Shown here: positions 51,135 to 63,455 of the stretch, one piece after another | Numbering within the stretch: position 1 is the first letter of the stretch | Layout: each line of letters begins with the position of its first letter | Source of the DNA: a virus | DNA: 64,000 bases | Strand: one strand, 5' to 3' | IMG/VR virus record: IMGVR_UViG_3300042516_005631 | Coordinates: 1-64,000 of that record | Made by a program: the position numbers and the translations under genes | Notes under the pieces: generated by a model | Database searches by the model: none | The model's input: the letters and a program-made list of their open reading frames with translations, nothing else | What the model was told of the DNA's origin: nothing

Positions 51135-51453
51135 AAGCTGCTACCTCATTACCATCGCTCTTAACTTGAGCTGGTCGTCCTCGTTTCAAAGTACCATTTG
51201 CTCTTTTACTCTCTAATTCAGCTAATCTCATTTGTCTTACTGAATTTGGATTTACAGGTCGTCCTTGGCCAATACCGTTTGCTTTATTCTCTGCTTGTTT
51301 AGCTAATCGAATTTGTCTTTCTGAATCAGCTACTACAGGTCGTCCTCGTTTCAACTCTCCACTATTTCTTTTTAATTCTAATTCTTTTAATCTTAATTGT
51401 CTTACACTGTTTTCATTTACAGGACGTCCTAATTTTTTTACTTCATTTTTCAT
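51133..51453 (-). CDS. AT-hook-like repeat DNA-binding protein
   Basis: A 106-residue protein built of about 3.5 repeats of GRPVNxNSxRQxRLxELExKRxxGxLKR. GRP triplets flanked by basic residues lie at 9, 37, 64 and 92, a regular period of 27-28 residues. GRP with flanking Lys/Arg is an AT-hook-like minor-groove motif, so binding of AT-rich DNA is likely. It could mark phage DNA or promoters. Start context AAAAGTTATG. Confidence 0.8.
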   Translation of the reverse strand: MKNEVKKLGRPVNENSVRQLRLKELELKRNSGELKRGRPVVADSERQIRLAKQAENKANGIGQGRPVNPNSVRQMRLAELESKRANGTLKRGRPAQVKSDGNEVAA

Positions 51454-51503
51454 AACTTTTTTCTTTTTAAATTTAACTTATTTTCTTAACTTATTTATAC
51501 TGT

Positions 51504-51537
51504 AATATACGAATTACATTTTAATTAACTTAGTCCT
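51504..51537 (-). promoter_or_regulatory. Early promoter-like element copy 2
   Basis: AGGA box overlaps the end of the 49-residue gene; TTCGTATATTACAGTATAA; precedes the AT-hook gene. Confidence 0.75.
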
Positions 51538-51679
51538 GAATTAACATTTTACTAATAAATTCTAAACACTCATCTTTATTATTAAAACTAAATCTATTTC
51601 CATTTTCATCATTAAAAAACCACCCTACTCTTTCATCAAATTTAACTAATATTCCTCTATAAACAAACATATTATTCAT
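51530..51679 (-). CDS. Unknown 49-residue early protein
   Basis: MNNMFVYRGILVKFDERVGW... is a small beta-alpha protein with no motif. Standard early unit: promoter, short leader, gene. Confidence 0.65.
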   Translation of the reverse strand: MNNMFVYRGILVKFDERVGWFFNDENGNRFSFNNKDECLEFISKMLIQD

Positions 51680-51703
51680 CTTTTATTTTTTTAATTATAC
51701 ATC

Positions 51704-51737
51704 AATATACGAATTACTTATTAAATTAACTCTTCCT
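51704..51737 (-). promoter_or_regulatory. Early promoter-like element copy 3
   Basis: AGGA, 20-base spacer, TTCGTATATTGATGTATAA; precedes the 49-residue gene. Confidence 0.75.
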
Positions 51738-52047
51738 GTTTTAAAGCAAATTGTTTCAATTCTTCTAGTTTATTATTTAATAATTCAATCATTTCAAGTT
51801 CACTTCCTCCAAAATAAAATACTCTACTCTTCATTCCTGGTACTTTCATTTCAAAACAATTATACAATCCTTTAGCTAATCCTCTTCTAAGCATATCAGC
51901 ATACTTCTTATTTGCTTCCCCTCCTTTACTCTTTCTATAATAACCAAATACTTCCTTTTGAATTTGTCCTTCAGTAGCTATAACTGTTAAATCTAAAAAT
52001 TCTACTATTTGCTTTACACTGTTTTGTTTTCTTCCTTTAAACCCCAT
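51721..52047 (-). CDS. Unknown 108-residue early protein, winged-helix-like
   Basis: Basic N-terminus (MGFKGRKQNSVKQIVEFLD) followed by helices and YADMLRRGLAKG. The ordering of helix, loop and basic strand would suit a winged-helix DNA-binding fold, but this is not certain. Confidence 0.68.
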   Translation of the reverse strand: MGFKGRKQNSVKQIVEFLDLTVIATEGQIQKEVFGYYRKSKGGEANKKYADMLRRGLAKGLYNCFEMKVPGMKSRVFYFGGSELEMIELLNNKLEELKQFALKQEELI

Positions 52048-52073
52048 TTTCTTATCTTTTTTAATTATACTTC

Positions 52074-52107
52074 AATATACGAATTATTTATTAATTAATT
52101 TAGTCCT
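52074..52107 (-). promoter_or_regulatory. Early promoter-like element copy 4
   Basis: AGGA, spacer, TTCGTATATTGAAGTATAA; precedes the 108-residue gene. Confidence 0.75.
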
Positions 52108-52214
52108 TTAATTTCTAAATAAAATACTTACAATTTTCTCATCTTCAACATTCAATTCTTTCACATCTAAAGTTTGATAAAAGAATGTATCTTCATCTAA
52201 GTCATTATCACTTA
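52108..52214 (-). pseudogene. Remnant of an early gene without a start codon
   Basis: An open frame encoding about 33 residues (DNDLDEDTFFYQTLDVKE...) runs to a TAA but has no in-frame ATG. The only nearby ATG meets a stop two codons later. It directly abuts early promoter copy 5. It looks like a deletion that joined the promoter to the 3' part of a gene. Confidence 0.45.
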
Positions 52215-52248
52215 AATATACGATTCAATACTAAATTAATTTACTCCT
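52215..52248 (-). promoter_or_regulatory. Early promoter-like element copy 5 (variant)
   Basis: AGGA and spacing kept, box ATCGTATATT; leads only into the gene remnant. Confidence 0.6.
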
Positions 52249-52250
52249 AA

Positions 52251-52406
52251 TTAAAACCCAATTAAATCAATTGCTATTTCTCCTGTACTTTTACCATTAT
52301 AGGTAATCTCATAATTTGGGTCCATCCCGGAAATCATAATATGGGCGATAAGATCCCCAATCGTTTTAAACTCTACCTCGTAATAATCACAATTTAAACT
52401 ATACAT
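52251..52406 (-). CDS. MYSLN-family early protein, copy 1
   Basis: A 51-residue protein (MYSLNCDYYEVEFKTIGDLI...) sharing M-D-P-N-Y-E-I-T and a common end with the copy at 54301-54456. Unknown function. Confidence 0.75.
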   Translation of the reverse strand: MYSLNCDYYEVEFKTIGDLIAHIMISGMDPNYEITYNGKSTGEIAIDLIGF

Positions 52407-52432
52407 AATTTATCATTTTTTAATTATACTTT

Positions 52433-52466
52433 AATATACGAATTATTTATTAATTTTACTATTCCT
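52433..52466 (-). promoter_or_regulatory. Early promoter-like element copy 6
   Basis: AGGA, spacer, TTCGTATATTAAAGTATAA; precedes MYSLN copy 1. Confidence 0.75.
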
Positions 52467-52469
52467 AAC

Positions 52470-52670
52470 TCAACAAAACTTATCTAATAAACCCTTATTC
52501 TCTAATTTAATTAAACAATTATTAACATTATAAGGATTCTTTCTTTTATAATTTTTCAACTCATCATTTACTAAATCCAAAAACTCCTTTTCATCATCCT
52601 CACTTACAAAATCAACTTCATCATATTCATTAATAAACAAATTTAACTCTTTAATACTTTCAAATTTCAT
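52470..52670 (-). CDS. Unknown 66-residue early protein
   Basis: Acidic N-terminal helix, lysine-rich end. No motif. Confidence 0.65.
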   Translation of the reverse strand: MKFESIKELNLFINEYDEVDFVSEDDEKEFLDLVNDELKNYKRKNPYNVNNCLIKLENKGLLDKFC

Positions 52671-52694
52671 ATCTTATCTTTTTAATTATACTGA

Positions 52695-52728
52695 AATATA
52701 CGAACTTAATTTTAACTCTGTTATTCCT
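52695..52728 (-). promoter_or_regulatory. Early promoter-like element copy 7
   Basis: AGGA, spacer, TTCGTATATTTCAGTATAA; precedes the 66-residue gene. Confidence 0.75.
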
Positions 52729-52921
52729 ATTTTAAATTAATAATTAAATCAAATAATAAATCCTCTAAACTATCATCACCCTTCCAACCTCTCTTATACA
52801 AATAATACTCCTTTACATCTTCTAAAGTTTCTAATTTATCAATATCTTTTTTTACCTCTAAAGCAAAATCCTCAAAACTCACTTCACATTCAAATTCAAA
52901 TACTTTTTCTGTTAATGTCAT
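52727..52921 (-). CDS. Unknown 64-residue acidic early protein
   Basis: Rich in Glu and Asp (FECEVSFEDFALEVKKDID...), helical. No motif. Confidence 0.65.
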   Translation of the reverse strand: MTLTEKVFEFECEVSFEDFALEVKKDIDKLETLEDVKEYYLYKRGWKGDDSLEDLLFDLIINLK

Positions 52922-52945
52922 CTTTTATTTTTTTAATTATACATC

Positions 52946-52979
52946 AATATACGAATCTTAATTTAATTAACTTAGTCCT
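52946..52979 (-). promoter_or_regulatory. Early promoter-like element copy 8
   Basis: AGGA, spacer, TTCGTATATTGATGTATAA; precedes the 64-residue gene. Confidence 0.75.
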
Positions 52980-52982
52980 GAA

Positions 52983-53186
52983 TTAACTAAATGATTCAAT
53001 CAAATCAGTTGCAATGTAAACGTCTCTACAAATCAATTCTTCAAATGAAAATACCCCTACTGTACCAAATGCTAATTTTACTTGTGCGTCCCATAATTTG
53101 TAATTTGTAGTACGCTTTAAACGCTGTTCAATACCTTTTAATTTAATCGTTAATTCTAATTTTTCTTTGTTGCTTAATCTGCTCAT
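52983..53186 (-). CDS. Unknown 67-residue early protein
   Basis: Lysine-rich helix followed by an alpha/beta part. No motif. Confidence 0.65.
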   Translation of the reverse strand: MSRLSNKEKLELTIKLKGIEQRLKRTTNYKLWDAQVKLAFGTVGVFSFEELICRDVYIATDLIESFS

Positions 53187-53208
53187 ATGTCTTTTTTAAT
53201 TATACCTG

Positions 53209-53242
53209 AATATACGAATTATATTTTTACTCTACTATTCCT
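53209..53242 (-). promoter_or_regulatory. Early promoter-like element copy 9
   Basis: AGGA box in the end of the 37-residue membrane gene; TTCGTATATTCAGGTATAA; precedes the 67-residue gene. Confidence 0.75.
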
Positions 53243-53340
53243 AAAATTAAACTTAATATATATAAAACAATTAAAGGCATTGCAATTGGGAATACTACTT
53301 TACCAAATAAATCATTTAAACCCTTGTTTCTCTTTTTCAT
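53227..53340 (-). CDS. 37-residue membrane protein
   Basis: MKKRNKGLNDLFGKVVFPIAMPLI... has one membrane helix after a basic start. Three bases from the 41-residue gene upstream, so probably co-expressed. Confidence 0.6.
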   Translation of the reverse strand: MKKRNKGLNDLFGKVVFPIAMPLIVLYILSLILGIVE

Positions 53341-53343
53341 ATC

Positions 53344-53469
53344 TTAATTCCATCTAATTACACAATCATCAAATTCTAGTATTTCTAATAGGTTTGAATT
53401 TAAAATAATTCCAACAGCCATCTCTTGTTTGATTAATAATCTCAATAATTTAATTTCTGCTTTTGTCAT
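53344..53469 (-). CDS. 41-residue early protein
   Basis: Amphipathic helix (MTKAEIKLLRLLIKQEM...) and short C-terminus. Unknown function. Confidence 0.58.
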   Translation of the reverse strand: MTKAEIKLLRLLIKQEMAVGIILNSNLLEILEFDDCVIRWN

Positions 53470-53493
53470 AACGTTTCTTTTTAATTATACTTT

Positions 53494-53527
53494 AATATAC
53501 GAATCAATTTTTAAAGACACTAGTCCT
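53494..53527 (-). promoter_or_regulatory. Early promoter-like element copy 10
   Basis: AGGA, spacer, TTCGTATATTAAAGTATAA; precedes the 41-residue gene and borders the non-coding block. Confidence 0.75.
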
Positions 53528-53841
53528 TAATTAAGCAGTAAGGTGGCCTGCAATTTATTGCAAGCTTTTCTTTTATTTTAACAAACGTTCCATCACAGGT
53601 CATTCTGATGGGCTTATCCTGGGTATGTTTTGTTGTAGGAGAACATCCAAACTCATTCATTTACCAACACGAATACGCTATTTTCCGCCATGTTTTGTAG
53701 GTCCTGGGGATATTTCTGTGTCCTAATGCTGTTGCTATCCGTTACCCGTTTCCATTATGGAGAATACATTGTATTCAGTAATACATATGTGAAGGTAATG
53801 CCTTTTTATTGCTTTTCCAACTATTTTTTTAATTTCTTTTA

Positions 53842-53870
53842 CCCCCCTCTCCCCCAAGGGGGACGGGGGA
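53842..53870. repeat. C/G-tract inverted repeat
   Basis: Two stacked C5/G5 stems around a 2-base loop (CCCCC-TCT-CCCCC against GGGGG-AC-GGGGG). Similar repeats are common in intergenic DNA of Bacteroidota. Confidence 0.6.
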
Positions 53871-54010
53871 GTCGCATTTTTTGTATATATTTTTGGAAAG
53901 AACGTAAAGGGGACGTGGCGATGTGGGGAAGGGTTAGACCCTAACATTCCCTAACACACCCTTAGTGACCTATATTTTCCACATACTATTTTAATTAATT
54001 TTCATTTCAT

Positions 54011-54284
54011 TTGATAATTGACGTTTTGTGGTGATTGACATCCTTTCGGTAATTTCTGTTATTTATTGACGTTTTTCGTTCCGTGACGATTTTCATTGGT
54101 AATTTTTATTTTATGATAATTTCCGTTTTGTGGTGATTTTCATTGACGATTTTCATTCCCCATGTTGATTTTCATTCCACATAAACTAATCTAAACATTA
54201 GTTTAGCTTACATGTTAATTTCTATTCCTTGCGTTTATCTGTTGGTGATTTCTATCTTTGACGATTTCCTTGATAATTGACGTT
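54011..54284. repeat. Iteron-like array
   Basis: TTGATAATTGACGTT occurs perfectly at both ends (54011, 54270). CGTTTTGTGGTGATT occurs twice (54022, 54124), TGACGATTTTCATT twice (54084, 54144) and GATTTTCATT four times. TGACG[T/A]T occurs six times. Consistent with protein-binding iterons. Confidence 0.65.
54183..54204. repeat. Perfect hairpin inside the iteron array
   Basis: AAACTAAT and ATTAGTTT, 8-bp stem, 6-base spacer. Confidence 0.6.
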
Positions 54285-54300
54285 CCTCGTTTTATACACG

Positions 54301-54456
54301 TTAAAATCCAATTAATTCAATTAACATTTCCCCTGTTAATTTTCCATTTCTAGTTATTTCATAATTAGGATCCATTCCTACTTGCATCGCATAATTAATC
54401 AATTCATCTATTGAACTAAACTCCTCTACAAAATAATTACAATTTAAACTATACAT
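54301..54456 (-). CDS. MYSLN-family early protein, copy 2
   Basis: A 51-residue protein (MYSLNCNYFVEEFSSIDELI...), diverged paralogue of the gene at 52251-52406 with M-D-P-N-Y-E-I-T and L-I-G-F end retained. The two copies are separated by other genes and the non-coding block. Confidence 0.75.
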   Translation of the reverse strand: MYSLNCNYFVEEFSSIDELINYAMQVGMDPNYEITRNGKLTGEMLIELIGF

Positions 54457-54482
54457 TTTTTTCTTTTTTTATTTATATCCTG

Positions 54483-54516
54483 AATATACGATCTCTATTT
54501 TATGTTTCTTAGTCCT
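54483..54516 (-). promoter_or_regulatory. Early promoter-like element copy 11 (variant)
   Basis: AGGA and spacing kept, box ATCGTATATT, then CAGGATATAA; precedes MYSLN copy 2. Confidence 0.65.
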
Positions 54517-54709
54517 CTAAATCTTCTATAAATTTAGTTTTGGTAAGTATTTCTGTTCCCCATTCAATGTCATCATCCACTTCCTCACCTTCACCACGTT
54601 CTTCTCCTTCTATTATTTTCAATTCTGCTTCTTCTTGTGAATTAGCTTCAACAATATATTGTATTGTTTTAGTTGATTTTACTTCTGTTGTAATTCTAAA
54701 TACTTTCAT
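54509..54709 (-). CDS. Small acidic early protein, paralogue A
   Basis: A 66-residue protein with FRITTEVKSTKTIQYIVEAN and DIEWGTEIL. It is similar in plan to the gene at 54947-55135. Unknown function. Confidence 0.72.
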   Translation of the reverse strand: MKVFRITTEVKSTKTIQYIVEANSQEEAELKIIEGEERGEGEEVDDDIEWGTEILTKTKFIEDLED

Positions 54710-54718
54710 TTTTTTTTC

Positions 54719-54898
54719 TTAATTATATCGTTGCATAATAATATCAGCAAATGCATAAAACTGATCAAAATCATCCTCTCTCATTAATGTTACTGCACTT
54801 TGAAATTCTAATATAAATGCTTCTCGTTTTGGTGAATTATCAACCAATTCAATATCATCTGCTAAGTGTTCAATTTGTTCAAACATTTTTTCTTTCAT
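54719..54898 (-). CDS. Unknown 59-residue early protein
   Basis: MKEKMFEQIEHLADDIELV... is helical and acidic. Between the paralogue pair. Start context AAAAGTTATG. Probably co-transcribed with paralogue A from copy 12. Confidence 0.65.
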   Translation of the reverse strand: MKEKMFEQIEHLADDIELVDNSPKREAFILEFQSAVTLMREDDFDQFYAFADIIMQRYN

Positions 54899-54926
54899 AA
54901 CTTTTTTCTCTCTTTATTTATACCGT

Positions 54927-54960
54927 AATATACGAAATTTATTTTACTAATCTATTTCCT
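54927..54960 (-). promoter_or_regulatory. Early promoter-like element copy 12
   Basis: AGGA, spacer, TTCGTATATTACGGTATAA; precedes the 59-residue gene. Confidence 0.75.
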
Positions 54961-55135
54961 CTTCTACAGTAATTACTTCACTTCCCCAATCATATTGTTC
55001 ATCAAATGTTATTCCATCACATCGGTGTTCTCCGTTTTGTAATTGTTCAAGTGCTTCCTCTAGTGAATCCGCTTCAATAAGATATTCTATTGTTGCTTTT
55101 ACTTGTACCTCTGTTTCAAATCTGAATTGTCCCAT
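54947..55135 (-). CDS. Small acidic early protein, paralogue B
   Basis: A 62-residue protein with FETEVQVKATIEYLIEADSL and YDWGSEVITVEEE. The two proteins share a (F/I)xTEV...(Y)xI/VEA(D/N)S...EEA core, evidence of duplication. Confidence 0.72.
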   Translation of the reverse strand: MGQFRFETEVQVKATIEYLIEADSLEEALEQLQNGEHRCDGITFDEQYDWGSEVITVEEEID

Positions 55136-55136
55136 T

Positions 55137-55433
55137 TTATCTACTTGTTACTGATTCGATTACTTCTGTTCCTGAATTGATCATTGCTATTACTCCACCC
55201 CACATATTTTCATCTGCTTCCCATTCTACTTCGTGTTTTGCATGTTTCATTTGCCAATTACTTATTGAAAATCCCATTCCATCTATTTTAAAATCACCTT
55301 CACTATTTTTCTTAAATCTTAAATAATGAACATTATCACACATACATGATACTGTTTTGAATATGACCTCTCTAGCTCCTTCTTTAATAGTTAATTTAGG
55401 TTGGTTTAATCTTAATTCTCTGTATTTACTCAT
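55137..55433 (-). CDS. Unknown 98-residue early protein
   Basis: Beta-rich, with MCDNVHYLRFKKN and WQMKHAKHEVEWEADENMWGG. No named family. Directly upstream of paralogue B and probably co-transcribed. Confidence 0.68.
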   Translation of the reverse strand: MSKYRELRLNQPKLTIKEGAREVIFKTVSCMCDNVHYLRFKKNSEGDFKIDGMGFSISNWQMKHAKHEVEWEADENMWGGVIAMINSGTEVIESVTSR

Positions 55434-55467
55434 AACTTTTTATTTTTTCTTTTTTTATTTATACTGT

Positions 55468-55501
55468 AATATACGAACTTTATTTTAAATCTCTATTTCC
55501 C
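55468..55501 (-). promoter_or_regulatory. Early promoter-like element copy 13
   Basis: GGGA instead of AGGA at the usual distance; TTCGTATATTACAGTATAA; precedes the 98-residue gene. Confidence 0.65.
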
Positions 55502-55663
55502 TAAAATTTCATCTAAATTTTCTTTAATATATTCCTTTACATCACTATACTCAAATCCATCATTTAACATTTGATCTGCTATTTCATTAATAGCTGTTGT
55601 TAATTGTACTGCTGATTCGAATGTTAATAGATTTTCAATTCGTTCTCTTTTTTCAAAATTCAT
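55493..55663 (-). CDS. Unknown 56-residue early protein
   Basis: MNFEKRERIENLLTFESAVQ... is helical and acidic. No motif. Confidence 0.63.
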   Translation of the reverse strand: MNFEKRERIENLLTFESAVQLTTAINEIADQMLNDGFEYSDVKEYIKENLDEILGK

Positions 55664-55685
55664 GTCTTTCTTTTTTATTTACTGA

Positions 55686-55719
55686 AATATACGAAAGCCC
55701 CTTTAATTTGGGGCTTCCT
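55686..55719 (-). promoter_or_regulatory. Early promoter-like element copy 14 with hairpin in spacer
   Basis: AGGA-AGCCCC...GGGGCT-TTCGTATATT: a hairpin fills the spacer and a T-run merges with the box. It may end the upstream gene and start the 56-residue gene. Confidence 0.72.
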
Positions 55720-55739
55720 TTACTAAATTTTATTTTAAT

Positions 55740-56087
55740 TTATTCCTCTGTTGAATTTTCATCTTCAATGTCATCTTCTTCCTCAACCATAAATTCATCA
55801 AGTACTGCATTTACATGTTCCATTATTTCATAAACATTAACATCTATATCAGTTACTCGAATAGTATTATTGTAATCTAATTCCAATTCTACACTATCTA
55901 GATCAACTAAACCACGACTATTATTATCCATTACTAACTCAATTTTGTTAGATATTTTATCTACTAGTTTTGGGGTAAGTCCTCCTGTCTCAATTTGTTT
56001 AATCAATTCAATTACTTTATCAATATCAACTGTTGATGATAATACTTTTGCTGTTTCTAGTTGTTCAATTAAATGTTCTTTTTTCAT
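55740..56087 (-). CDS. Unknown 115-residue acidic early protein
   Basis: Helical with an alternating Leu/Val/Asp middle and an acidic tail. No motif. Followed by the hairpin-containing promoter copy 14. Confidence 0.65.
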   Translation of the reverse strand: MKKEHLIEQLETAKVLSSTVDIDKVIELIKQIETGGLTPKLVDKISNKIELVMDNNSRGLVDLDSVELELDYNNTIRVTDIDVNVYEIMEHVNAVLDEFMVEEEDDIEDENSTEE

Positions 56088-56113
56088 ATCTTTTTCTTTT
56101 TTTATTTGAGTGA

Positions 56114-56147
56114 AATATACGAAAGCCCTTTTAAATAAGGGCTTCCT
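56114..56147 (-). promoter_or_regulatory. Early promoter-like element copy 15 with hairpin in spacer
   Basis: AGGA-AGCCC...GGGCT-TTCGTATATTTCAC; precedes the 115-residue gene. Confidence 0.72.
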
Positions 56148-56373
56148 TTTTTGTTTTCTCTACTATAAAAGAAATTGCTCTTTGGTTTTCTGGTAATGTA
56201 TTATCTGGTTTAATTCCCAAATCTTCCATTAACCCGTTTATTTTAGCCCAATCTGATACTGAACGTAGTGTAATGTTATTATCTTTTCCAAATAGACTTT
56301 CATCTACTTTAATTTGTAAAAATAATTCTGCTTCTTTTTGTTGAATTACTTCAATCATTTGTTTTTTTGTCAT
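56131..56373 (-). CDS. Unknown 80-residue early protein
   Basis: N-terminal helix (MTKKQMIEVIQQKEAELF) and alpha/beta remainder. Start context AAAGGTTATG. Confidence 0.65.
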   Translation of the reverse strand: MTKKQMIEVIQQKEAELFLQIKVDESLFGKDNNITLRSVSDWAKINGLMEDLGIKPDNTLPENQRAISFIVEKTKKEALI

Positions 56374-56389
56374 AACCTTTATTTTCTTT

Positions 56390-56423
56390 AATATACGAAC
56401 TTAAATTGGATAACCTATGTCCC
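56390..56423 (-). promoter_or_regulatory. Early promoter-like element copy 16
   Basis: GGGA at the usual distance; TTCGTATATTAAAG; precedes the 80-residue gene. Confidence 0.6.
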
Positions 56424-56484
56424 TTGCTCCAAAATCTAGCTCTTCCATTTGAGCTAGTATTGCTAATGCTTCCTCGTCACTCAT
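56401..56484 (-). CDS. 27-residue acidic peptide
   Basis: MSDEEALAILAQMEELDFG... starts at an ATG overlapping the upstream stop (ATGA). Probably translated with that gene. Confidence 0.5.
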   Translation of the reverse strand: MSDEEALAILAQMEELDFGARDIGYPI

Positions 56485-56660
56485 TTGTTTAGTTTCATTT
56501 TTAACTTTAAATCACTAATTGTCATTTCAACAAAACCAGCAGTCATTATTGGTGTTTTTCCACTTTGCTCTACTTTTTCAATTTCAGCGATCATATCTGC
56601 TTGTACTTTGTCTAATCCATCATTGATTAGAAACTTCTCAAAACCATTTAATTTGCTCAT
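56481..56660 (-). CDS. Unknown 59-residue early protein
   Basis: MSKLNGFEKFLINDGLDKVQ... followed by helices. Its stop overlaps the start of the 27-residue gene. No motif. Confidence 0.65.
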   Translation of the reverse strand: MSKLNGFEKFLINDGLDKVQADMIAEIEKVEQSGKTPIMTAGFVEMTISDLKLKMKLNK

Positions 56661-56690
56661 AACTTTTATTTCTTTTTTTATTTATACTGT

Positions 56691-56724
56691 AATATACGAA
56701 ATTTCTATTAAATCTCCTATGCCC
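56691..56724 (-). promoter_or_regulatory. Early promoter-like element copy 17 (weak upstream box)
   Basis: TTCGTATATTACAGTATAA is intact, but the upstream box is GGGC. Precedes the 59-residue gene. Confidence 0.6.
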
Positions 56725-56947
56725 TCATTACTAAATTTAAGGGCACATTAAAACCGTCCGGATCAATTACAGGTACAAATTCACCTTCATCTTCATCCAT
56801 CACGTATTCAATATCTAACCAATCTGTAACATCACAATCTTCATTATTTATTACTAGTTTTGCTGCTTCACCACAATCTGAGAGTATAACACCATAACCA
56901 CAACAATTTGAATATGTGTAATAACCATGGATTTTTTCTTTTAACAT
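56717..56947 (-). CDS. Conserved phage protein, possible metal-binding
   Basis: A 76-residue protein with CCGYGVILSDCGEAA and WLDIEYVMDEDEG...VPVIDPDGFNVPLN, a widespread small phage family. Three Cys and acidic residues could bind metal. Unknown role. Confidence 0.78.
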   Translation of the reverse strand: MLKEKIHGYYTYSNCCGYGVILSDCGEAAKLVINNEDCDVTDWLDIEYVMDEDEGEFVPVIDPDGFNVPLNLVMRA

Positions 56948-56971
56948 AACCTTTATTTCTTTTTATACTTT

Positions 56972-57005
56972 AATATACGAAATCTATTTTAATCTTCTTC
57001 GTCCT
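56972..57005 (-). promoter_or_regulatory. Early promoter-like element copy 18
   Basis: AGGA, spacer, TTCGTATATTAAAGTATAA; precedes the 76-residue gene. Confidence 0.75.
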
Positions 57006-57366
57006 CTATTTCAAACGTTTTATTTTTTAATTCTACTTTAAGTGCGTCCAATTCTTCTTTTAATCGTTCAATAAACGATTCTTCTCCATCATCACCTGCC
57101 AATAACCAATCTATACGTTGAGCATATATTTCTGCTTTGCGGAGCATTTCATAGCCTTTTTTAAATTCCTCTATAATTTCATCTGAGTATTTGTAGTGGT
57201 TTAGGTCCTCTGGGTATTTTTCGTACCATTCTCTATCTCTGTAATAGCCTTCTTCTTTTAATTCACGTGGTGTTTTTGGTCTACCACTTCTAGCTATTTC
57301 TTGTTCAATATCATCAGCTATGTATCTGATTTTGTATTGGTTGTAATCAAATGTTCCTCCACTCAT
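56989..57366 (-). CDS. Conserved phage protein (MSGGTFDYxQY family)
   Basis: A 125-residue protein with the family start MSGGTFDYNQYKIRYIADDI and EEFKKGYEMLRKAEIYAQRIDWLLAGDDGEE. The family is common in phages and prophages of many hosts; function unknown. Confidence 0.85.
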   Translation of the reverse strand: MSGGTFDYNQYKIRYIADDIEQEIARSGRPKTPRELKEEGYYRDREWYEKYPEDLNHYKYSDEIIEEFKKGYEMLRKAEIYAQRIDWLLAGDDGEESFIERLKEELDALKVELKNKTFEIEDEED

Positions 57367-57385
57367 AATTTTCTTAATTTATTTT

Positions 57386-57419
57386 AATATACGAAATTTA
57401 TTTTAATAACCTTCGTCCT
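57386..57419 (-). promoter_or_regulatory. Early promoter-like element copy 19
   Basis: AGGA, spacer, TTCGTATATTAAAA; precedes the MSGGTFDY gene. Confidence 0.72.
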
Positions 57420-57810
57420 TTACTATCCAACCTTTATCAATCAAATGACCAATAAACCCTCTAAATTCAGCTATGCCTTGTTCATCTAACATTTCCTCTG
57501 CTTCCGGCATACTTTCAGGATTTCCTTCATAAACACCTATAAACCATCTAGGATTATCTGAATTATCTTTTTTCCAATCATCTCTATTTGCAGGGCGTTT
57601 ATCTGTTATTTCAACCCAGGAATCAGCATAAATATCTGTTAAATCTTTTGCTTCGTCTTTCAATATAACTGTTGCTTCAAAACACCATTCATCTGATTCC
57701 CAAGTACAACTTAAACTATTTGTAACATCTCTTGGTTTGATTTCCACTATTGGTAATGTAGATGTTTCTCTAACATACCATACTCCGTCTACTTGTATTC
57801 TATCTTTCAT
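57403..57810 (-). CDS. RIQVxGVWYVRET-family protein, copy 1
   Basis: A 135-residue protein with RIQVDGVWYVRET at the start and WESDEWCFEATVIL in the middle, related to the gene at 61454-61843 over most of its length. Unknown function; duplicated in this phage. Confidence 0.8.
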   Translation of the reverse strand: MKDRIQVDGVWYVRETSTLPIVEIKPRDVTNSLSCTWESDEWCFEATVILKDEAKDLTDIYADSWVEITDKRPANRDDWKKDNSDNPRWFIGVYEGNPESMPEAEEMLDEQGIAEFRGFIGHLIDKGWIVKDEGY

Positions 57811-57829
57811 TTTCTTTTTAATTTATTGG

Positions 57830-57863
57830 AATATACGAAAAGGGTATTAAATACCCTCTTCCT
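57830..57863 (-). promoter_or_regulatory. Early promoter-like element copy 20 with hairpin in spacer
   Basis: AGGA-AGAGGGTATTTAATACCCTT-TTCGTATATT: the GGGTAT/ATACCC stem fits the spacer; precedes RIQV copy 1. Confidence 0.72.
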
Positions 57864-58230
57864 CTAATTCTTCTACTAAAATATCTACTGTTGAACGTCC
57901 TAATTTATTTACTAACCAAATACCACCTATAGTTAAACAATAAATATATTCTATTCCACTTTCAAACCCATAATCAAACAAATCTGGTACATTTGGAAAT
58001 GTTTTGAAATGTAAATCTTCTCCTCTATCACGATGATATGCTATTGTCCATAAGATTGATTCCCCTAACGCTGAGATATCCCCTAGTTCCATTAGTTTTT
58101 CGGTTTTTTCTCTATCGTAGTGGTTAAATAATTTTTTACCTACTCCATCTAAATAACCATCAAAATGACAATAAATTGATGTTACTGTTCCGTCTTGATT
58201 TTCAATTGCTATTCTACTTCTTGTTGCCAT
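57847..58230 (-). CDS. Conserved phage protein (MATRSRIAIEN family)
   Basis: A 127-residue protein with MATRSRIAIENQDGTVTSIY and HFDGYLDGVGKKLFNHY, a frequent phage family with an alpha/beta fold. Function unknown. Confidence 0.83.
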   Translation of the reverse strand: MATRSRIAIENQDGTVTSIYCHFDGYLDGVGKKLFNHYDREKTEKLMELGDISALGESILWTIAYHRDRGEDLHFKTFPNVPDLFDYGFESGIEYIYCLTIGGIWLVNKLGRSTVDILVEELEEEGI

Positions 58231-58254
58231 AATTTTTCTCTTTATTTATACTGT

Positions 58255-58288
58255 AATATACGAAATTTCTTTAATATCTTCTATTCCT
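58255..58288 (-). promoter_or_regulatory. Early promoter-like element copy 21
   Basis: AGGA, spacer, TTCGTATATTACAGTATAA; precedes the MATRSRI gene. Confidence 0.75.
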
Positions 58289-58669
58289 CTATTTTTTATC
58301 AATTATCACTTCAACTTTAATTTCTCCATCTACAAAACGACTAACCTGAAAGTATTCTACTTCATCCATTGCTTTAATGTCTTTCTTTAATTTGTTTAAA
58401 GTTGTTTTATTTTTAATTGAGCCACAACTAAATGCAGGTGAATCAAAATACTTGATTCGATATGCTCCATACGGGTTTGTGTTTTTAACTATTTTCCAAT
58501 CATCATCAGTCAATAAGTCTAGTCTTTTATTTCTATCTTTAATTGTTGCTGAGTAGTGGTAGCCACAATTTTGGCAATTTACATATTGTTCTCCTGTTTT
58601 GTAATAGAAATCACTAAACGCTTCGTGTTCACAGTTTGGACACTCTATTTCATCTATAAAACTTCCCAT
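58289..58669 (-). CDS. Zinc-ribbon early protein
   Basis: A 126-residue protein with CPNC (10-13) and CQNC (33-36), an N-terminal zinc ribbon, and a lysine-rich alpha/beta C-terminal domain. Possible nucleic-acid binding. It is followed by copy 21. Confidence 0.75.
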   Translation of the reverse strand: MGSFIDEIECPNCEHEAFSDFYYKTGEQYVNCQNCGYHYSATIKDRNKRLDLLTDDDWKIVKNTNPYGAYRIKYFDSPAFSCGSIKNKTTLNKLKKDIKAMDEVEYFQVSRFVDGEIKVEVIIDKK

Positions 58670-58670
58670 T

Positions 58671-59243
58671 TTAATCTTCTCTTGTAATACTTTCTAAACC
58701 AAACAAATAAGCTAATACTGTTTCTTCCATTCCTTCATAACATGTAAGTTCCATTGATGTTAATATCTCAGCTACAGTTGATGAATTTTGTACCTTTTCA
58801 ATAGCTTTCATACAATGGTTAGTGTTAGTTTTGATTGTTTTAATAATATCTTCAATTTGATCTACTGTATCGTCGTCAATATCTTGTATTGACATTTTAA
58901 CATCTTGTAGCATATCAAATTCAAAATCTTCAATATGTCCTTCTAACATATTTATAACTCGTTGCTTACCTTCTTTAAAATTAAATTTCATAACTTTCTT
59001 ATTTTCTTCAAATATACGACCTTCTTTTTGCTGAGAAACTTCCTCTACTTTTGTAAATTGATGTTCAAAATAACCACCATCTGCTTGTTCACCTGATAAT
59101 TCATCTCGAATCCATTTTACAAAAACATATTCTTCATCATTCCATCCAATGTAATACTCTTCAACTATAGCTGTTGCTCCTTTTTTAGCTGCGTATGTAC
59201 CTTCTCCTTCAAATTCTACTATGTCTCCTTTTTTAAATTTCAT
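58671..59243 (-). CDS. Readthrough fusion of two early genes over a promoter
   Basis: A 190-residue frame. Residues 1-75 form an SH3-like module (KKGDIVEFEGEGTYAAKKGAT ... VKWIRDEL). Residues 76-84 (GRIFEENKK) are a translation of promoter element copy 22. Residue 85 is a Met with AAAGTTATG context that starts a complete 106-residue helical protein. The internal gene can be expressed alone from copy 22. Its stop is the only one for the upstream frame. The fusion may be made from the upstream start, or the first gene may have lost its stop codon. Confidence 0.7.
   Translation of the reverse strand: MKFKKGDIVEFEGEGTYAAKKGATAIVEEYYIGWNDEEYVFVKWIRDELSGEQADGGYFEHQFTKVEEVSQQKEGRIFEENKKVMKFNFKEGKQRVINMLEGHIEDFEFDMLQDVKMSIQDIDDDTVDQIEDIIKTIKTNTNHCMKAIEKVQNSSTVAEILTSMELTCYEGMEETVLAYLFGLESITRED
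59011..59044 (-). promoter_or_regulatory. Early promoter-like element copy 22 (inside a reading frame)
   Basis: AGGA box and 24-base distance kept; box GTCGTATATT; located between the two halves of the fusion frame. Confidence 0.7.
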
Positions 59244-59400
59244 CTTCTAATTTCTTTTTTATTCCATCCAATATCATATTTACCCCATCATATACTTCAT
59301 CAATTAGATAAAGGTTAGGATGGTATTCATCTATAAGTTCATTTAATTGAAATACAAATGCTTTTAATCGTTCTGGGTTGTTTTCTGCAAATTTATTCAT
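59233..59400 (-). CDS. Unknown 55-residue early protein
   Basis: MNKFAENNPERLKAFVFQLN... is helical. It overlaps the fusion gene by 11 bases. Start context AAAAGTTATG. Confidence 0.65.
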   Translation of the reverse strand: MNKFAENNPERLKAFVFQLNELIDEYHPNLYLIDEVYDGVNMILDGIKKKLEDEI

Positions 59401-59424
59401 AACTTTTATTTTTTTCTTACTTGA

Positions 59425-59458
59425 AATATACGAAAGGCTCTTTAATTAGAGCCTTCCT
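59425..59458 (-). promoter_or_regulatory. Early promoter-like element copy 23 with hairpin in spacer
   Basis: AGGA-AGGCTCTAATTAAAGAGCCT-TTCGTATATT; precedes the 55-residue gene and probably ends the 253-residue gene. Confidence 0.74.
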
Positions 59459-60203
59459 TTTTTACTTGTTTTGAAAATTTATCTAACAATTCCTCTGAAT
59501 TCATTTTCTCAAATTCAGCATCATATTTTTTATGAAGAATTTCTTTATTTTGATATGTGTTTAATGTAAGCTGAATGTAACTACCTGATTCAAATTTAAC
59601 TTCAATAACATCAAATGTACCACTATATCTTGAATAGTCACTTTTAACCGTTATTGTAGCATTTGGGTACAATTTTGTATACTTTTCAACTGTACTTAGT
59701 TTTAAACCGTTTTTCTTTTTATATTCCTCCAACAATTGTTCTTGACGGGAATTGTATGTTTTTAATTTTTCAAGTAATGTTGCAGGTTTAATGTAGCGAT
59801 AATTATCTTGAATAGTACTACAATTAACTTTATCTCTTTCAAATTCAATATTGAATGTAGAATCAACCAATTCATTTGGTTTTGAATATGTATCAAATTG
59901 TTTTCCTTTCAAAAAAATACCCCCACCAATTGCTTTATATGTTATTTCAGCTCTAAAATCAGTTTTGTTATAGGAATAACCTATTGTTGTTTCATTAGTA
60001 ACAGTTTCTACTTTAAATGTATTAACAAAATCAACATCTTTAACAAAACCATTGTTGATAAGCAATTGCTCGCGTTGTTTGTTTATACTCTCATTTGTAT
60101 TAGCAATATCTTCTCTAATTTTGATAAATTCTGCTATTTTTTGTTCTTGTTCAGGTGTAAATAATATACCATCAAATAAACTTAATTGAATTCCTTCTTT
60201 CAT
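59442..60203 (-). CDS. Early protein with sliding-clamp-binding motif
   Basis: A 253-residue protein opening MKEGIQLSLFDG. QLSLF at residues 6-10 matches the bacterial beta-clamp-binding consensus QL[SD]LF. Helical and beta regions follow without a recognised catalytic site. It might hijack or block the host clamp, or be loaded onto DNA through it. Start context GAAAGTTATG. Confidence 0.75.
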   Translation of the reverse strand: MKEGIQLSLFDGILFTPEQEQKIAEFIKIREDIANTNESINKQREQLLINNGFVKDVDFVNTFKVETVTNETTIGYSYNKTDFRAEITYKAIGGGIFLKGKQFDTYSKPNELVDSTFNIEFERDKVNCSTIQDNYRYIKPATLLEKLKTYNSRQEQLLEEYKKKNGLKLSTVEKYTKLYPNATITVKSDYSRYSGTFDVIEVKFESGSYIQLTLNTYQNKEILHKKYDAEFEKMNSEELLDKFSKQVKKEGSN

Positions 60204-60228
60204 AACTTTCTTTTTTTATTTATACTTT

Positions 60229-60262
60229 AATATACGAAATCTATTTTACTTTTCTTTGTCCT
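60229..60262 (-). promoter_or_regulatory. Early promoter-like element copy 24
   Basis: AGGA, spacer, TTCGTATATTAAAGTATAA; precedes the QLSLF gene. Confidence 0.75.
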
Positions 60263-60416
60263 TCATTAATTCTTCTCCAAAATCAGAATTTTTACACCAC
60301 AATTCCCACATTGCATTAAACCATGCTGGGCCATCTTCTTCATATGTTAGTCCTTCAACAGTTGCATGTGTGTTTCTAACCAAAAACGCTGTCCAATTTA
60401 ATAACCAAGGTTCCAT
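60246..60416 (-). CDS. Unknown 56-residue early protein
   Basis: MEPWLLNWTAFLVRNTHATV... is rich in Trp, acidic at the end. No family recognised. Confidence 0.65.
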   Translation of the reverse strand: MEPWLLNWTAFLVRNTHATVEGLTYEEDGPAWFNAMWELWCKNSDFGEELMKDKEK

Positions 60417-60436
60417 TTTCTTTTAATTTATACTTT

Positions 60437-60470
60437 AATATACGAAATCTCTTTTAAATTAACTATTCCT
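60437..60470 (-). promoter_or_regulatory. Early promoter-like element copy 25
   Basis: AGGA, spacer, TTCGTATATTAAAGTATAA; precedes the 56-residue gene. Confidence 0.75.
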
Positions 60471-60845
60471 TTTTGCTAATATCTTTTGATATTCTTCTTC
60501 ACATAAAGTTGTATACCAACCTATATCTGTTCTCAATTGTCCTGGTTTGCCTGTTACCTCGCATGTTTGGTAGCTTAAATCTTCTGCTTTGCTTATACGC
60601 GCATGCATTTCATCTGATGCTTCATTGATATAGAAGCGTAGACCACCAAATTTTTCCTTTATTTGGCATACTTCTTTGTTCCAACCCAATTCAATCAAAT
60701 CAGTGATAAGGTCTTTTATTAGTTGATACCAACCTGAATCGCATTCAAAGAATCCTGCATTCGTTATTGGTTCTCTATTTGAGTACATGCCATTTTCCAA
60801 CCCACCTATGGATTGTAGAAAATCGTTCATTTCTTGTTCTGTCAT
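60459..60845 (-). CDS. Conserved phage/bacterial protein
   Basis: A 128-residue protein with DSGWYQLIKDLITDL and VCQIKEKFGGLRFYI, the mark of a family seen in phages and some bacteria. Also contains a Cys pair near 95-115. Function unknown. It overlaps the next gene by 4 bases. Confidence 0.8.
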   Translation of the reverse strand: MTEQEMNDFLQSIGGLENGMYSNREPITNAGFFECDSGWYQLIKDLITDLIELGWNKEVCQIKEKFGGLRFYINEASDEMHARISKAEDLSYQTCEVTGKPGQLRTDIGWYTTLCEEEYQKILAKRNS

Positions 60846-61093
60846 AGTTGTTCTATTTCTTGTTTAACTTGTTGCCAACTCGTTAAAGAGCCTGCGATAA
60901 GGCCTTTAGCATGTGGGTGTAAATCTTCTGCTACTTCAAGTGATTCTTTTAAGTCTTTTAATATCTCATCTACTGCAATTAAAGCACATTGTTTAGCTGT
61001 TGGATGATAAATTATAGAATAGTCTGCTAACTTCTGTTTTCTTATGTTCATAAAAGCTTCAACTAGCTCTTCTGCTTTTTCTTTTGGTGTCAT
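60842..61093 (-). CDS. Conserved phage protein (MTPKEKAEELV family)
   Basis: An 83-residue product from the ATG at 61093. An upstream ATG would overlap the neighbour by 38 bases and is unlikely. Contains AKQCALIAVDEIL, which recurs in Bacteroidota phages. Function unknown. Confidence 0.8.
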   Translation of the reverse strand: MTPKEKAEELVEAFMNIRKQKLADYSIIYHPTAKQCALIAVDEILKDLKESLEVAEDLHPHAKGLIAGSLTSWQQVKQEIEQL

Positions 61094-61094
61094 T

Positions 61095-61403
61095 TTATTC
61101 TGGTTCTTGGTATAATCCTGCTGATTCATCATCTTTCATCATTTGAATCAATTTTGATTCCCTAACATATTTTCGAATTAAAGCAATAATTACTTTAGGT
61201 TCCTCAGCAAATTTTATTTTATCATCATTTTTAATTCCAAACCAAGCAATGTTGAAACCATGATTTGCTGTAAAATCTTCTGATTTAATTCGAATACCAT
61301 TTACTTTATCTAAGTAGATCCATGGATAATTTCCAACCAATTCTATTTCGATACCACAACGTCTTAATCGTTTAACTAAAATTGAAATTACGTCTTCTCC
61401 CAT
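61095..61403 (-). CDS. Conserved phage protein
   Basis: A 102-residue protein with IEIELVGNYPWIYLDKVNGIRI (18-39) and ANHGFNIAWF, a small alpha/beta family frequent in Bacteroidota phages. First gene of a three-gene unit with short spacings. Confidence 0.8.
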   Translation of the reverse strand: MGEDVISILVKRLRRCGIEIELVGNYPWIYLDKVNGIRIKSEDFTANHGFNIAWFGIKNDDKIKFAEEPKVIIALIRKYVRESKLIQMMKDDESAGLYQEPE

Positions 61404-61419
61404 TTTTTTAATTTAATTT

Positions 61420-61453
61420 AATATACGAAAGCTCTCTTACGAGAACTAGTCCT
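61420..61453 (-). promoter_or_regulatory. Early promoter-like element copy 26 with hairpin in spacer
   Basis: AGGACTAG, TCTC/GAGA stem, then TTCGTATATTAAA; precedes the 102-residue gene. Confidence 0.7.
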
Positions 61454-61843
61454 TTATTTTGTTAACCAACCAATACTATTCAAATATAAAAGAAATGCTT
61501 TAAATTCCTCTAAACCTTGTTTATCAAACATTTCTCTTGCATCAATCATTGAATCAGGATTATCTTCTAACACACCAAACATAAAGTTCGGATTATCAAC
61601 ATCATCTTCAACCCAATCTTTTCTATCTGCAGGACGTTTATCTGTTATTTTAATGTATGGGTCCGGGTAATGATCATCTAATGTTTCTGCTCCATCTAAC
61701 ATAATCACAGTTGCAACAAAACACCAGTCGTTTGATTCCCAAATACGTTCCATACTGAATGTAATATCTTTTTCTTTTATTTCAGGTGTTGGGTTAGTTT
61801 CTCTAACATACCATACACCGTTTACTTGAATTCTTTCTTCCAT
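61454..61843 (-). CDS. RIQVxGVWYVRET-family protein, copy 2
   Basis: A 129-residue paralogue of the gene at 57403-57810. Matching segments include RIQVNGVWYVRET, WESNDWCFVATVIM and ITDKRPADRKDW. One base separates it from the next gene. Confidence 0.8.
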   Translation of the reverse strand: MEERIQVNGVWYVRETNPTPEIKEKDITFSMERIWESNDWCFVATVIMLDGAETLDDHYPDPYIKITDKRPADRKDWVEDDVDNPNFMFGVLEDNPDSMIDAREMFDKQGLEEFKAFLLYLNSIGWLTK

Positions 61844-61844
61844 A

Positions 61845-62201
61845 TCATTTATTTTCAGTTATTTCAATTAACTTTTTAAGACAAGCAAATTCTGCTTCTT
61901 CATAGGTGGTAAAATTTTCAAATCCATGTTCATTATTTCCTAAATCTTCCCATCCACTACAAAAACCATCACCACTAAAGTTAATAAAATTACATAATTG
62001 ATACTTCTCTCTAAACCATCTAAATGCTTGTTGGTATAGTGGTGCTGATGTAAATCCTCTTCTTGAGTAGTTAGGGGATGTATTTTTCATGTTGTCTAAA
62101 ACAAATTCATTTTCAACCCCATAGTATCCAAAACAAGGTTCATCAAATCCAAGTTGCTTCATCTTTAAAGCTAACTCATAAGGTACAAATTCTTTTTCCA
62201 T
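61845..62201 (-). CDS. Conserved Bacteroidota-phage protein
   Basis: A 118-residue protein starting MEKEFVPYELALKMKQLGFD and containing QQAFRWFREKYQL, a well-known small family of Bacteroidota phages and prophages. Function unknown. Confidence 0.85.
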   Translation of the reverse strand: MEKEFVPYELALKMKQLGFDEPCFGYYGVENEFVLDNMKNTSPNYSRRGFTSAPLYQQAFRWFREKYQLCNFINFSGDGFCSGWEDLGNNEHGFENFTTYEEAEFACLKKLIEITENK

Positions 62202-62217
62202 TCTCTTAATTTTCTCA

Positions 62218-62251
62218 AATATACGAAATTTTTACTTTAAAACCTATTCCT
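62218..62251 (-). promoter_or_regulatory. Early promoter-like element copy 27
   Basis: AGGA, spacer, TTCGTATATTTGAG; precedes the 118-residue gene. Confidence 0.72.
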
Positions 62252-62506
62252 TTACTTTAATATAAAATACATTGACAACAAAGCACCTATTGTATAACCT
62301 AAAGAACTAGCCAATGCTAAAAAAAACCTACCTTTCCATGTTTTTTCATCTGCAACAAAACCAGCAAATGGTAAAGCAATAAACGGACCTACAAATGCCC
62401 AAAACATTGTGCTTGTAATGCTTTTATCTGCTACTGAGCTGATGTACATTGTACTTCCAACTTCTAAAATTAGAGCTGATATAGAAATGATTAAATACCT
62501 ATTCAT
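62252..62506 (-). CDS. Membrane protein with three hydrophobic segments
   Basis: An 84-residue product from the ATG at 62506, overlapping the upstream stop codon by 8 bases. Hydrophobic segments at about 4-17, 30-48 and 58-80. An upstream ATG would add a long polar stretch within the neighbour's gene. Confidence 0.65.
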   Translation of the reverse strand: MNRYLIISISALILEVGSTMYISSVADKSITSTMFWAFVGPFIALPFAGFVADEKTWKGRFFLALASSLGYTIGALLSMYFILK

Positions 62507-62732
62507 GGTAATTAAAGCAAACAGCCATATATGTTGGTACATAAAACATTTGTCCTGCACATTCATTATATTTTGTATGTTCTTCGTGTGGCAGGACTTC
62601 AAAGTATGACTTTTCCTCGTCATACGAAATTAGACGTGCTTTCATAGTTGGAGAGATGTTGGTAAATGTTACTCTACCAACTGCCTCTCTAATATGGTTA
62701 AGAGTTTTAACACGTTGTGTTACTTGTCTCAT
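62499..62732 (-). CDS. Unknown 77-residue early protein
   Basis: Basic N-terminus and beta-rich middle (VGRVTFTNISPTMKARLISYD...). Overlaps genes on both sides by 4-8 bases. Confidence 0.68.
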   Translation of the reverse strand: MRQVTQRVKTLNHIREAVGRVTFTNISPTMKARLISYDEEKSYFEVLPHEEHTKYNECAGQMFYVPTYMAVCFNYHE

Positions 62733-62932
62733 TTTTTCATTCTATAAACTATAAATGCAATCAAAAGAGCTGTTCCTGCAATCAGTATAGCTGCTGAAAT
62801 TGGTATCCAAAGCGGGGCTGTAACCCACCACCAACTCCAAGTAATATGACCTGTTAATTTTAAAGTCATAAATATAAGGAATAGTATCATACCAATTCCA
62901 ATTCCGTTTGTGTTTGTTTTTTTATCGCTCAT
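62729..62932 (-). CDS. Two-helix membrane protein
   Basis: A 67-residue protein with membrane helices at about 11-29 and 38-61 and a Trp-rich centre (WSWWWVTAPLWIP), a recurrent small phage protein. Overlaps the 77-residue gene by 4 bases. Confidence 0.72.
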   Translation of the reverse strand: MSDKKTNTNGIGIGMILFLIFMTLKLTGHITWSWWWVTAPLWIPISAAILIAGTALLIAFIVYRMKK

Positions 62933-63068
62933 TTATATATTTTTCTGTTATTTTAATTTGACGCTCTAATATGTCTATATACTTGTCACGTGATTCAATG
63001 TCTTTCTTTAAAATTTCAATTATTTCCTGTTGAATCTCAATTATTTTCTCTAGTTGTTTTCTCTTCAT
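62922..63068 (-). CDS. 48-residue coiled-coil protein
   Basis: MKRKQLEKIIEIQQEIIEIL... is a single coiled coil. It overlaps the membrane gene by 11 bases and the next gene by 32. Confidence 0.6.
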   Translation of the reverse strand: MKRKQLEKIIEIQQEIIEILKKDIESRDKYIDILERQIKITEKYINER

Positions 63069-63225
63069 TTTTATTTTCTTTAGATTCTTTTATTTCAGCA
63101 TAAATTATAGCATAAACAATTGTTAGAATAAATAGAAATAGTGTTTCTACTGTGAAAAAATAAAGCCCTGCTACTATAGCGGCTAATACTAAAAGTGTTG
63201 TTGTTGTTTGTAAATGTGTATTCAT
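63037..63225 (-). CDS. Small membrane protein
   Basis: A 62-residue protein with two hydrophobic segments (about 9-25 and 28-45) and a charged tail. First gene of the run behind promoter copy 28. Confidence 0.65.
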   Translation of the reverse strand: MNTHLQTTTTLLVLAAIVAGLYFFTVETLFLFILTIVYAIIYAEIKESKENKNEEKTTRENN

Positions 63226-63247
63226 TTTCTTTTTTTTAATTTATGTT

Positions 63248-63281
63248 AATATACGAAATTTCTTTTGCTCATAAACGTCCT
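63248..63281 (-). promoter_or_regulatory. Early promoter-like element copy 28
   Basis: AGGA, spacer, TTCGTATATTAAC; directly follows the tRNA terminator and precedes the membrane gene. Confidence 0.72.
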
Positions 63282-63284: not shown

Positions 63285-63322
63285 TTAAAAAACCTGCCGT
63301 ATGTTCGTATCCACACGGCAGG
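63285..63322 (-). terminator. Strong rho-independent terminator after the tRNA-like gene
   Basis: A perfect 8-bp GC-rich stem (CCTGCCGT/ACGGCAGG, 14-nt loop) is followed by six T on the minus strand. Confidence 0.93.
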
Positions 63323-63348: not shown

Positions 63349-63455
63349 TAGTCAGAACAGGATTCGAACCTGTAAGTGGGTTTATTCATTTCATTCTTAT
63401 ATCACCCTTTCATATAATCTTCTAGATAGCGTCTAACCAATTCCGCCACCTGACT
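63349..63455 (-). tRNA. tRNA-like gene, Leu-type, with aberrant anticodon region
   Basis: Acceptor stem AGTCAGG/TCTGACT (one G-T pair), a D arm GCGGAATTGGTTAGACGC typical of tRNA-Leu, and a perfect T arm ACAGG-TTCGAAT-CCTGT are clear. The 55-base region between D and T arms is about 15-20 bases longer than usual and does not give a normal 5-bp anticodon stem with a T33 loop, so the anticodon cannot be assigned. CCA is not encoded. Degenerate, intron-like or non-translating tRNA. Confidence 0.72.

Follow-up and report, generated by a model that had tools for sequence, protein, structure and literature searches.

What is the role of a hairpin that fills, to the base, the spacer of a repeated promoter-like element? 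The question is raised by the virus record IMGVR_UViG_3300042516_005631 (95,454 bases, linear, possibly a fragment), bases 1-64000 of which constitute the stretch analyzed here (the window), and where the element AGGA-N20-TTCGTATATT precedes small genes. By sequence, the record is a T4-like phage related to Flavobacterium phage immuto, the nearest isolate found (57% identity to the record in the terminase and 60% in the portal). A sequence-only reading of the window had proposed that a single stretch may terminate the upstream gene as well as start the next one, or alternatively that the hairpin itself is the recognized element, as for the virion RNA polymerase of phage N4. The comparative sequence evidence favors the former. 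Thus, the promoter of the next gene is probably overlaid by an intrinsic terminator serving the upstream gene, namely the spacer hairpin, because the pairing tolerates G-U on the sense strand, the stem is locked in position to the box, its presence depends on the upstream gene, and long-T hairpins run into the same GTATATT. The array and the five window hairpins are:

51101-63257, minus strand: box array, 28 NTCGTATATT boxes ahead of small genes, with AGGA exactly 20 bases upstream (GGGA/GGGC three times)
55696-55715, minus strand: spacer hairpin AGCCCC-8-GGGGCT; box 55686-55695, AGGA 55716-55719; -16.5 kcal/mol, z -5.1
56124-56143, minus strand: spacer hairpin AGCCCTT-6-AAGGGCT; box 56114; stop codon of the upstream open reading frame (ORF) in the loop; -15.3 kcal/mol
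57840-57859, minus strand: spacer hairpin AGGGTAT-3-ATACCCT; box 57830; upstream stop codon at the apex; -14.2 kcal/mol
59435-59454, minus strand: spacer hairpin AGGCTCT-6-AGAGCCT; box 59425; upstream stop codon in the loop; -15.6 kcal/mol
61430-61447, minus strand: spacer hairpin AGTTCTC-GTAA-GAGAGCT, with one U-G pair; box 61420; -9.8 kcal/mol, z -2.5

The five inverted repeats singled out earlier (copies 14, 15, 20, 23 and 26, with copy numbers matched to positions) are all present on the minus strand, with the arms as described. The phasing of AGGA, stem and box also held up: the AGGA-to-TTCGTATATT spacer measures exactly 20 bases in 27 of 27 matches across the whole record, with 18-22 bases allowed, and the stems end flush at the box. 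A T-run following the stem had been noted as well, and here only part of the description stands, as the Ts do run into the box but form no separate run; the tail consists of the last T of the stem and the TT of the box, followed by CG. The minus strand of the window carries 29 NTCGTATATT boxes, and the one outside the array, at 20916, sits in an ORF.

The spacing recurs in related viral contigs, whose relatedness rests on the arrays and on small proteins in common, the downstream ones forming 101 clusters. Using only strands of loci with at least three boxes, and merging rows identical around the box while keeping close relatives separate, GG was found at the expected place in 698 of 836 distinct array boxes. 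AGGA lies at offset 20 in 523, at 14 in 21, and in 0-4 at each other offset between 15 and 31. Hairpin counts exclude the 138 boxes that lack GG at -23, as well as boxes less than 200 bases from the start of a locus. The resulting 698 elements combine a hairpin-blind scan (among the matches listed) with two scans requiring AG..CT ends. Conservation extends to a central TAAA (one A at 88-98%), even where the upstream stop codon is elsewhere, so that this motif belongs to the element; the idea that the TAA is merely the upstream stop codon was ruled out on the same grounds. Searching phages with the short element by BLAST returned partial matches only, none spanning 80% of the query.

Flush stems, defined as at least 6 pairs with G-U allowed and compared with numbers expected from column permutation, are far in excess. 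They occur in 5 of 12 elements of the span 55686-61453 (0.08 expected) and in 8 of the 30 copies found in the window plus the adjacent stretch of the record (0.095 expected), leaving 22 of 30 copies hairpin-free; the three additional hairpin copies lie just outside the window, at record positions 64938, 65762 and 67163. Among elements of contigs fetched hairpin-blind, 16 of 135 carry such stems versus 0.43 expected (among the matches listed), and overall 132 of 698 versus 2.96 expected, in a set that includes loci chosen for AG..CT ends. Stem length is bimodal, with 0-4 or 7-8 pairs and flush stems of 5-6 pairs nearly absent (688 elements). Among full 7-bp stems two designs dominate: a 7-bp stem with a 6-nt loop (61 cases, loop mostly AATTAA, 15 different arm sequences), and 2 nt plus a 7-bp stem with a 4-nt loop (37 cases, 14 different arm sequences). 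Loops of the latter are GNRA in 30 of 37 (GCAA 15, GTAA 12, GCGA 2, GAAA 1), as compared to 70 of 600 non-hairpin copies with GNRA at the same place. Moreover, of stems of at least 7 bp within -200 to +60, 100 of 145 end at the box (690 elements), and 16 of 29 in the hairpin-blind subset (among the matches listed). A stable, GC-rich RNA hairpin on the sense strand, as typical of intrinsic terminators, is found at these copies, while two hairpin-free copies fold with -0.2 and -0.1 kcal/mol.

A separate observation concerns the start region, where TATAA in this record is present in 1 of 7 hairpin copies versus 18 of 23 hairpin-free ones (p 0.004). Pooled over the 698 elements the figures are 59 of 122 and 377 of 576 (p 0.0006), with significance in 0 of 11 single related loci.

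Which strand is kept paired can be read from imperfect stems. Those with a single defect hold 15 G-U, 0 A-C and 8 other mismatches, versus 0.15 G-U and 0.13 A-C per run in permuted data. As a G-U on the sense strand equals an A-C on the template strand, and of these two G-U alone is seen, it is the hairpin of the sense strand that is preserved. This bias argues for an RNA hairpin, and against both a cruciform and a template-strand hairpin of the N4 type. At orthologous sites the stems vary in both arms, as detected in two clusters that were picked for many hairpins: covariation reached 0.476 in a 7-sequence cluster versus 0.244 when shuffled (1 of 500 shuffles as high), and 0.478 versus 0.204 in the second (13 of 14 distinct sequences; 0 of 500).

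The hairpin is furthermore linked to the gene before it. The upstream ORF has a median of 127 amino acids at the 132 hairpin copies and 77 at 523 hairpin-free ones, a difference reached in 0 of 2000 within-locus permutations; for the hairpin-blind set (among the matches listed) plus this record the medians are 113.5 and 76 (0 of 2000). Longer upstream genes at hairpin copies would be predicted for a hairpin with a role in the upstream transcript. Downstream ORFs show the opposite direction and a smaller gap, 69.5 versus 81 amino acids, with 45 of 2000 permutations.

The same genomes also fuse hairpins with long T-runs directly to the TATATT box, as exemplified in the window, where a separate hairpin serves as comparison case:

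16518-16543, minus strand: hairpin of a canonical terminator, its 11-bp stem containing one G-U and its loop reading TTTG (16529-16532); the loop lies N20 upstream of TATATT, the host -33 position
16503-16517, minus strand: T8 run (16510-16517), then G, then a TATATT -7-type box (16503-16508); the ATG of ORF 15191-16483 follows 19 bases on
63293-63322, minus strand: comparison case, a stand-alone hairpin of canonical terminator-like type (T6, 11-bp stem); the promoter copy downstream of it, with its box at 63248-63257, is hairpin-free

With the loop TTTG exactly 20 bases before TATATT, a textbook terminator and a host-type promoter would share the same 41 bases (16503-16543). Phage immuto likewise displays, by eye, hairpins whose T6-T8 tails continue into CGTATATT or GTATATT, at 22091, 25035, 64521 and 130565, the stem at 25035 containing several G-U pairs. 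Counted over 108 strands, GTATATT directly follows 18 of 64 strong-T hairpins, versus 2, 2, 0 and 0 at four control offsets. Since this count uses the same loci, the 11 cases with AGGA are enriched by choice, whereas the 7 without are not; and as it took only hairpins with at most one G-U, the immuto cases 22091, 25035 and 64521 were missed. One of the 7 non-AGGA cases (L010) touches an ATG. It precedes an AAA clamp-loader-like protein (record 92155-93069, L010:8155-9069), with the strong T-run hairpin ending at GTATATT right before the start codon; as the box abuts the ATG, it would hardly serve that gene, unless leaderless.

The nature of the box is best read from its resemblance to host promoters. 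At Flavobacterium start sites a -7 element TAnnTTTG is described at -12 to -5 (PMC9723704), as is a -33 TTTG, which is much less evident in F. johnsoniae (PMC6847099). TATATT fits the TAnnTT of this -7 element; the next base is T in 27% and then G in 2%, making TG at -6/-5 rare. Five GTATATT sites of this record that lack AGGA have TTTG/TTG exactly 20 bases before TATATT, and five immuto copies carry AGTTGC with TTG equally spaced, akin to the -33 TTTG/-7 TAnnTTTG pattern of Bacteroidetes A-type promoters outlined in those two sources. Array copies differ, mostly having NTAR where the -33 TTTG would be and AGGA directly upstream, at about -40. We therefore favor reading the box as a -7 element whose upstream portion is altered. 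Two candidate promoter types with common TATATT and N20 can accordingly be listed in this record: host-like, with TTTG/TTG at -33 (49293-49299 and 50429-50435; record 64319, 70242 and 75789), and array-type, with AGGA and NTAR (51101-63257).

The AGGA block may be a phage activator site, by analogy to MotA, which marks T4 middle promoters via such a site. T4 early and middle promoters similarly endow each small gene with its own promoter, and in MotA-dependent ones the upstream block is replaced while the -10 side is kept; the motif however differs. An extracytoplasmic function (ECF)-type promoter (GGAA..CGTA) was dropped, as the spacing is about 20 here and usually 16-17 in that class.

The simplest assumption is that the host polymerase transcribes the array. 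PF00940, covering T7/N4-type polymerases, matched the N4 and T7 controls, with none in this 95-kb record (possibly a fragment), in immuto or in 6 further records, although a diverged gene, or one beyond the fragment, could escape. The multisubunit RNA polymerase family PF00562 was found in 0 of 8 records, with 14 of 14 controls positive. Two of the eight records hold sub-threshold matches to sigma-70 region 2, in open frames of 242-245 amino acids in relatives (G001 15075-15203 and G003 113193-113315), possibly late sigma factors like T4 gp55.

From these sequences we infer promoter activity, early timing and termination, and the following course of events. The box would form the -7 part of a promoter driving the small-gene region, with TATATT at host A-type spacing and AGGA plus a degenerate -33, and in about one quarter of the copies here the 20-base AGGA-to-TTCG spacer would double as intrinsic terminator for the upstream gene. 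Polymerase coming from upstream would transcribe the spacer, and the RNA would fold into a 6-8 bp hairpin that GGA/UUC pairing can extend to about 10 bp. Polymerase would then halt in the UUUCGUAUAUU stretch supplied by the next promoter, the box of which would act as the U-tract of the terminator, and a new polymerase would initiate about 10 bases further downstream. Because AGGA and box cannot move, the hairpin is mostly confined to the 7-6-7 or 2+7-4-7 geometry. The likeness to an intrinsic terminator comprises the GC-rich sense-strand hairpin, the G-U tolerance, the GNRA loops in one design and the Us directly after; unlike the typical case, stem length is set by the promoter spacer, and the U-tract stems from the next box and is broken by CG.

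Several observations weigh against termination at these hairpins. The U-tract of box copies is only UUU, then CG, compared to T6-T8 in the fused copies (16503-16543 and immuto). The tail score, from our own implementation modelled on the TransTermHP formula, is 2.9-3.0 for the two box copies passing the filter, versus 4.2-5.7 for five separate hairpins; four others reach 2.5-3.1. Opposite-strand tails of 3 of the 5 window hairpins score 2.5-3.2, equal or better, so direction has to be read from G-U and gene order rather than from the tail. Hairpins are not enriched at TTTG boxes, whose T-run is longer (8 of 40 versus 26 of 167, p 0.48), and hairpin sites are not significantly conserved across orthologues (89 pairs versus 71.9; 147 of 2000 permutations reach the observed number). 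In the 13-sequence covariation test, shifting the register by -2 columns still gives 0.452, nearly equal to the true one, and DNA, too, can form stable GNRA-like loops. Finally, of 132 hairpin copies, 43 have the upstream stop codon inside the loop, a position at which the 5' arm would be masked by a ribosome. Aggregated, the short U-tract, the opposite-strand tails, the close stop codons, the lack of hairpin gain in TTTG boxes and the lack of significant site conservation suggest that termination may be partial, weak or conditional. It may depend on translation of the upstream gene, considering that tR2 is reported to be repressed when just downstream of a gene (PMC4824070).

Some of these points fit another role equally well. 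The sense-strand RNA hairpin might protect or define the 3' end of the upstream mRNA, through stability or processing, and be an inefficient terminator with frequent read-through. Sense-strand pairing and the upstream-gene link agree with this just as well, and the U-tract, which is short and does not surpass the opposite-strand tail, and the close stop codons speak for it. We nevertheless regard it as unlikely, as the stem abuts the box at a fixed position, placing UUU right behind it, and long-T hairpins fused to GTATATT in the same genomes would be needless for a stabilizer alone. We give far less credit to the notion that the box is no promoter and AGGA-N20-TTCGTATATT an RNA-level element of a polycistronic message. 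The promoter status of the box is indeed deduced from sequence; the strict 20-base spacing however persists in mostly unstructured copies, and other copies of the record, as well as immuto, place TATATT N20 downstream of TTTG/TTG, following the published Bacteroidetes -33/-7 pattern.

A supercoil switch, where the spacer palindrome extrudes as a cruciform and shuts the promoter under negative supercoiling, could exploit C-GNNA-G loops, which are stable in DNA also. There is precedent, since an rrnB promoter with an N4 hairpin between its -35 and -10 was inactive in E. coli unless gyrase was inhibited (PMC4496689). A cruciform needs both strands, yet the defects are 15 G-U versus 0 A-C, and the hairpin follows the upstream gene more than the downstream gene, rendering the switch highly improbable. 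The N4-type promoter offered by the sequence-only reading, with the hairpin as the element recognized by a virion RNA polymerase, we consider close to discarded. The hairpins do recur before small genes, with a stem length resembling that of N4, and a short hairpin in a phage promoter is common to both systems (PMC4496689). The spacer however spans about -36 to -17 (box taken as -7 element), whereas the N4 hairpin is centered at -11, within -17 to +1; the kept pairing is that of the coding strand, while N4 needs a template-strand hairpin; the hairpin is optional here, as evident from the 22 hairpin-free copies; and the polymerase searches above gave no T7/N4-type or multisubunit match in the records covered.

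Returning to the terminator superposed on a promoter, an extension that we view as rather doubtful is a hand-off, in which polymerase ending in UUUCGUAUAU is left on the next -7 box and restarts without leaving the DNA. If so, the phage would keep captured polymerases cycling along the array, each gene retaining its own dose. In vitro, E. coli polymerase that has terminated is able to initiate again at a promoter close by (PMC6978380); there, terminator and promoter are apart, unlike the superposition proposed here.

The idea that a terminator and a promoter may overlap is not new. The two are usually regarded as separate parts; here a terminator hairpin is seemingly packed repeatedly into a fixed-length spacer, in at least two geometries. 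Literature searches on overlapping phage terminators/promoters and on Flavobacterium phage early promoters, covering titles and abstract openings with most subscription papers outside reach, yielded no description of a spacer-confined terminator as a repeated phage element. Hairpin and hairpin-free copies in one genome offer a natural comparison set that bears on the spacer tolerance of the promoter, on re-initiation fed by nearby termination and on insulation of neighboring genes in compact phages. The element also suggests an annotation rule for transcription units in these little-studied phages.

As for the surrounding genome, the window encodes T4-type major capsid gp23 (Pfam E 3.7e-74), portal gp20 (1.5e-68) and terminase, for which reason a crAss-like phage with a virion polymerase was dropped as candidate. 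Its long ORFs are on the minus strand. A megablast search with 24 kb of the window found no match among phages, and an Rfam scan of the full window gave nothing at the gathering threshold. A tRNA-like sequence at 63349-63455 (minus strand) reached 32.1 bits with Rfam tRNA in a narrow search; it has additional bases near the anticodon arm and in the variable region, no ARAGORN call, and is unlisted in the full-window Rfam scan. At 51173-51430, three direct repeats (GGTCGTCCT...) spaced 81-84 bases apart within a single ORF form a short protein repeat. The region 53500-54300, within the array, has few ORFs of at least 60 amino acids, and many GACGTTTT/TGATTTTCATT-like repeats by eye.

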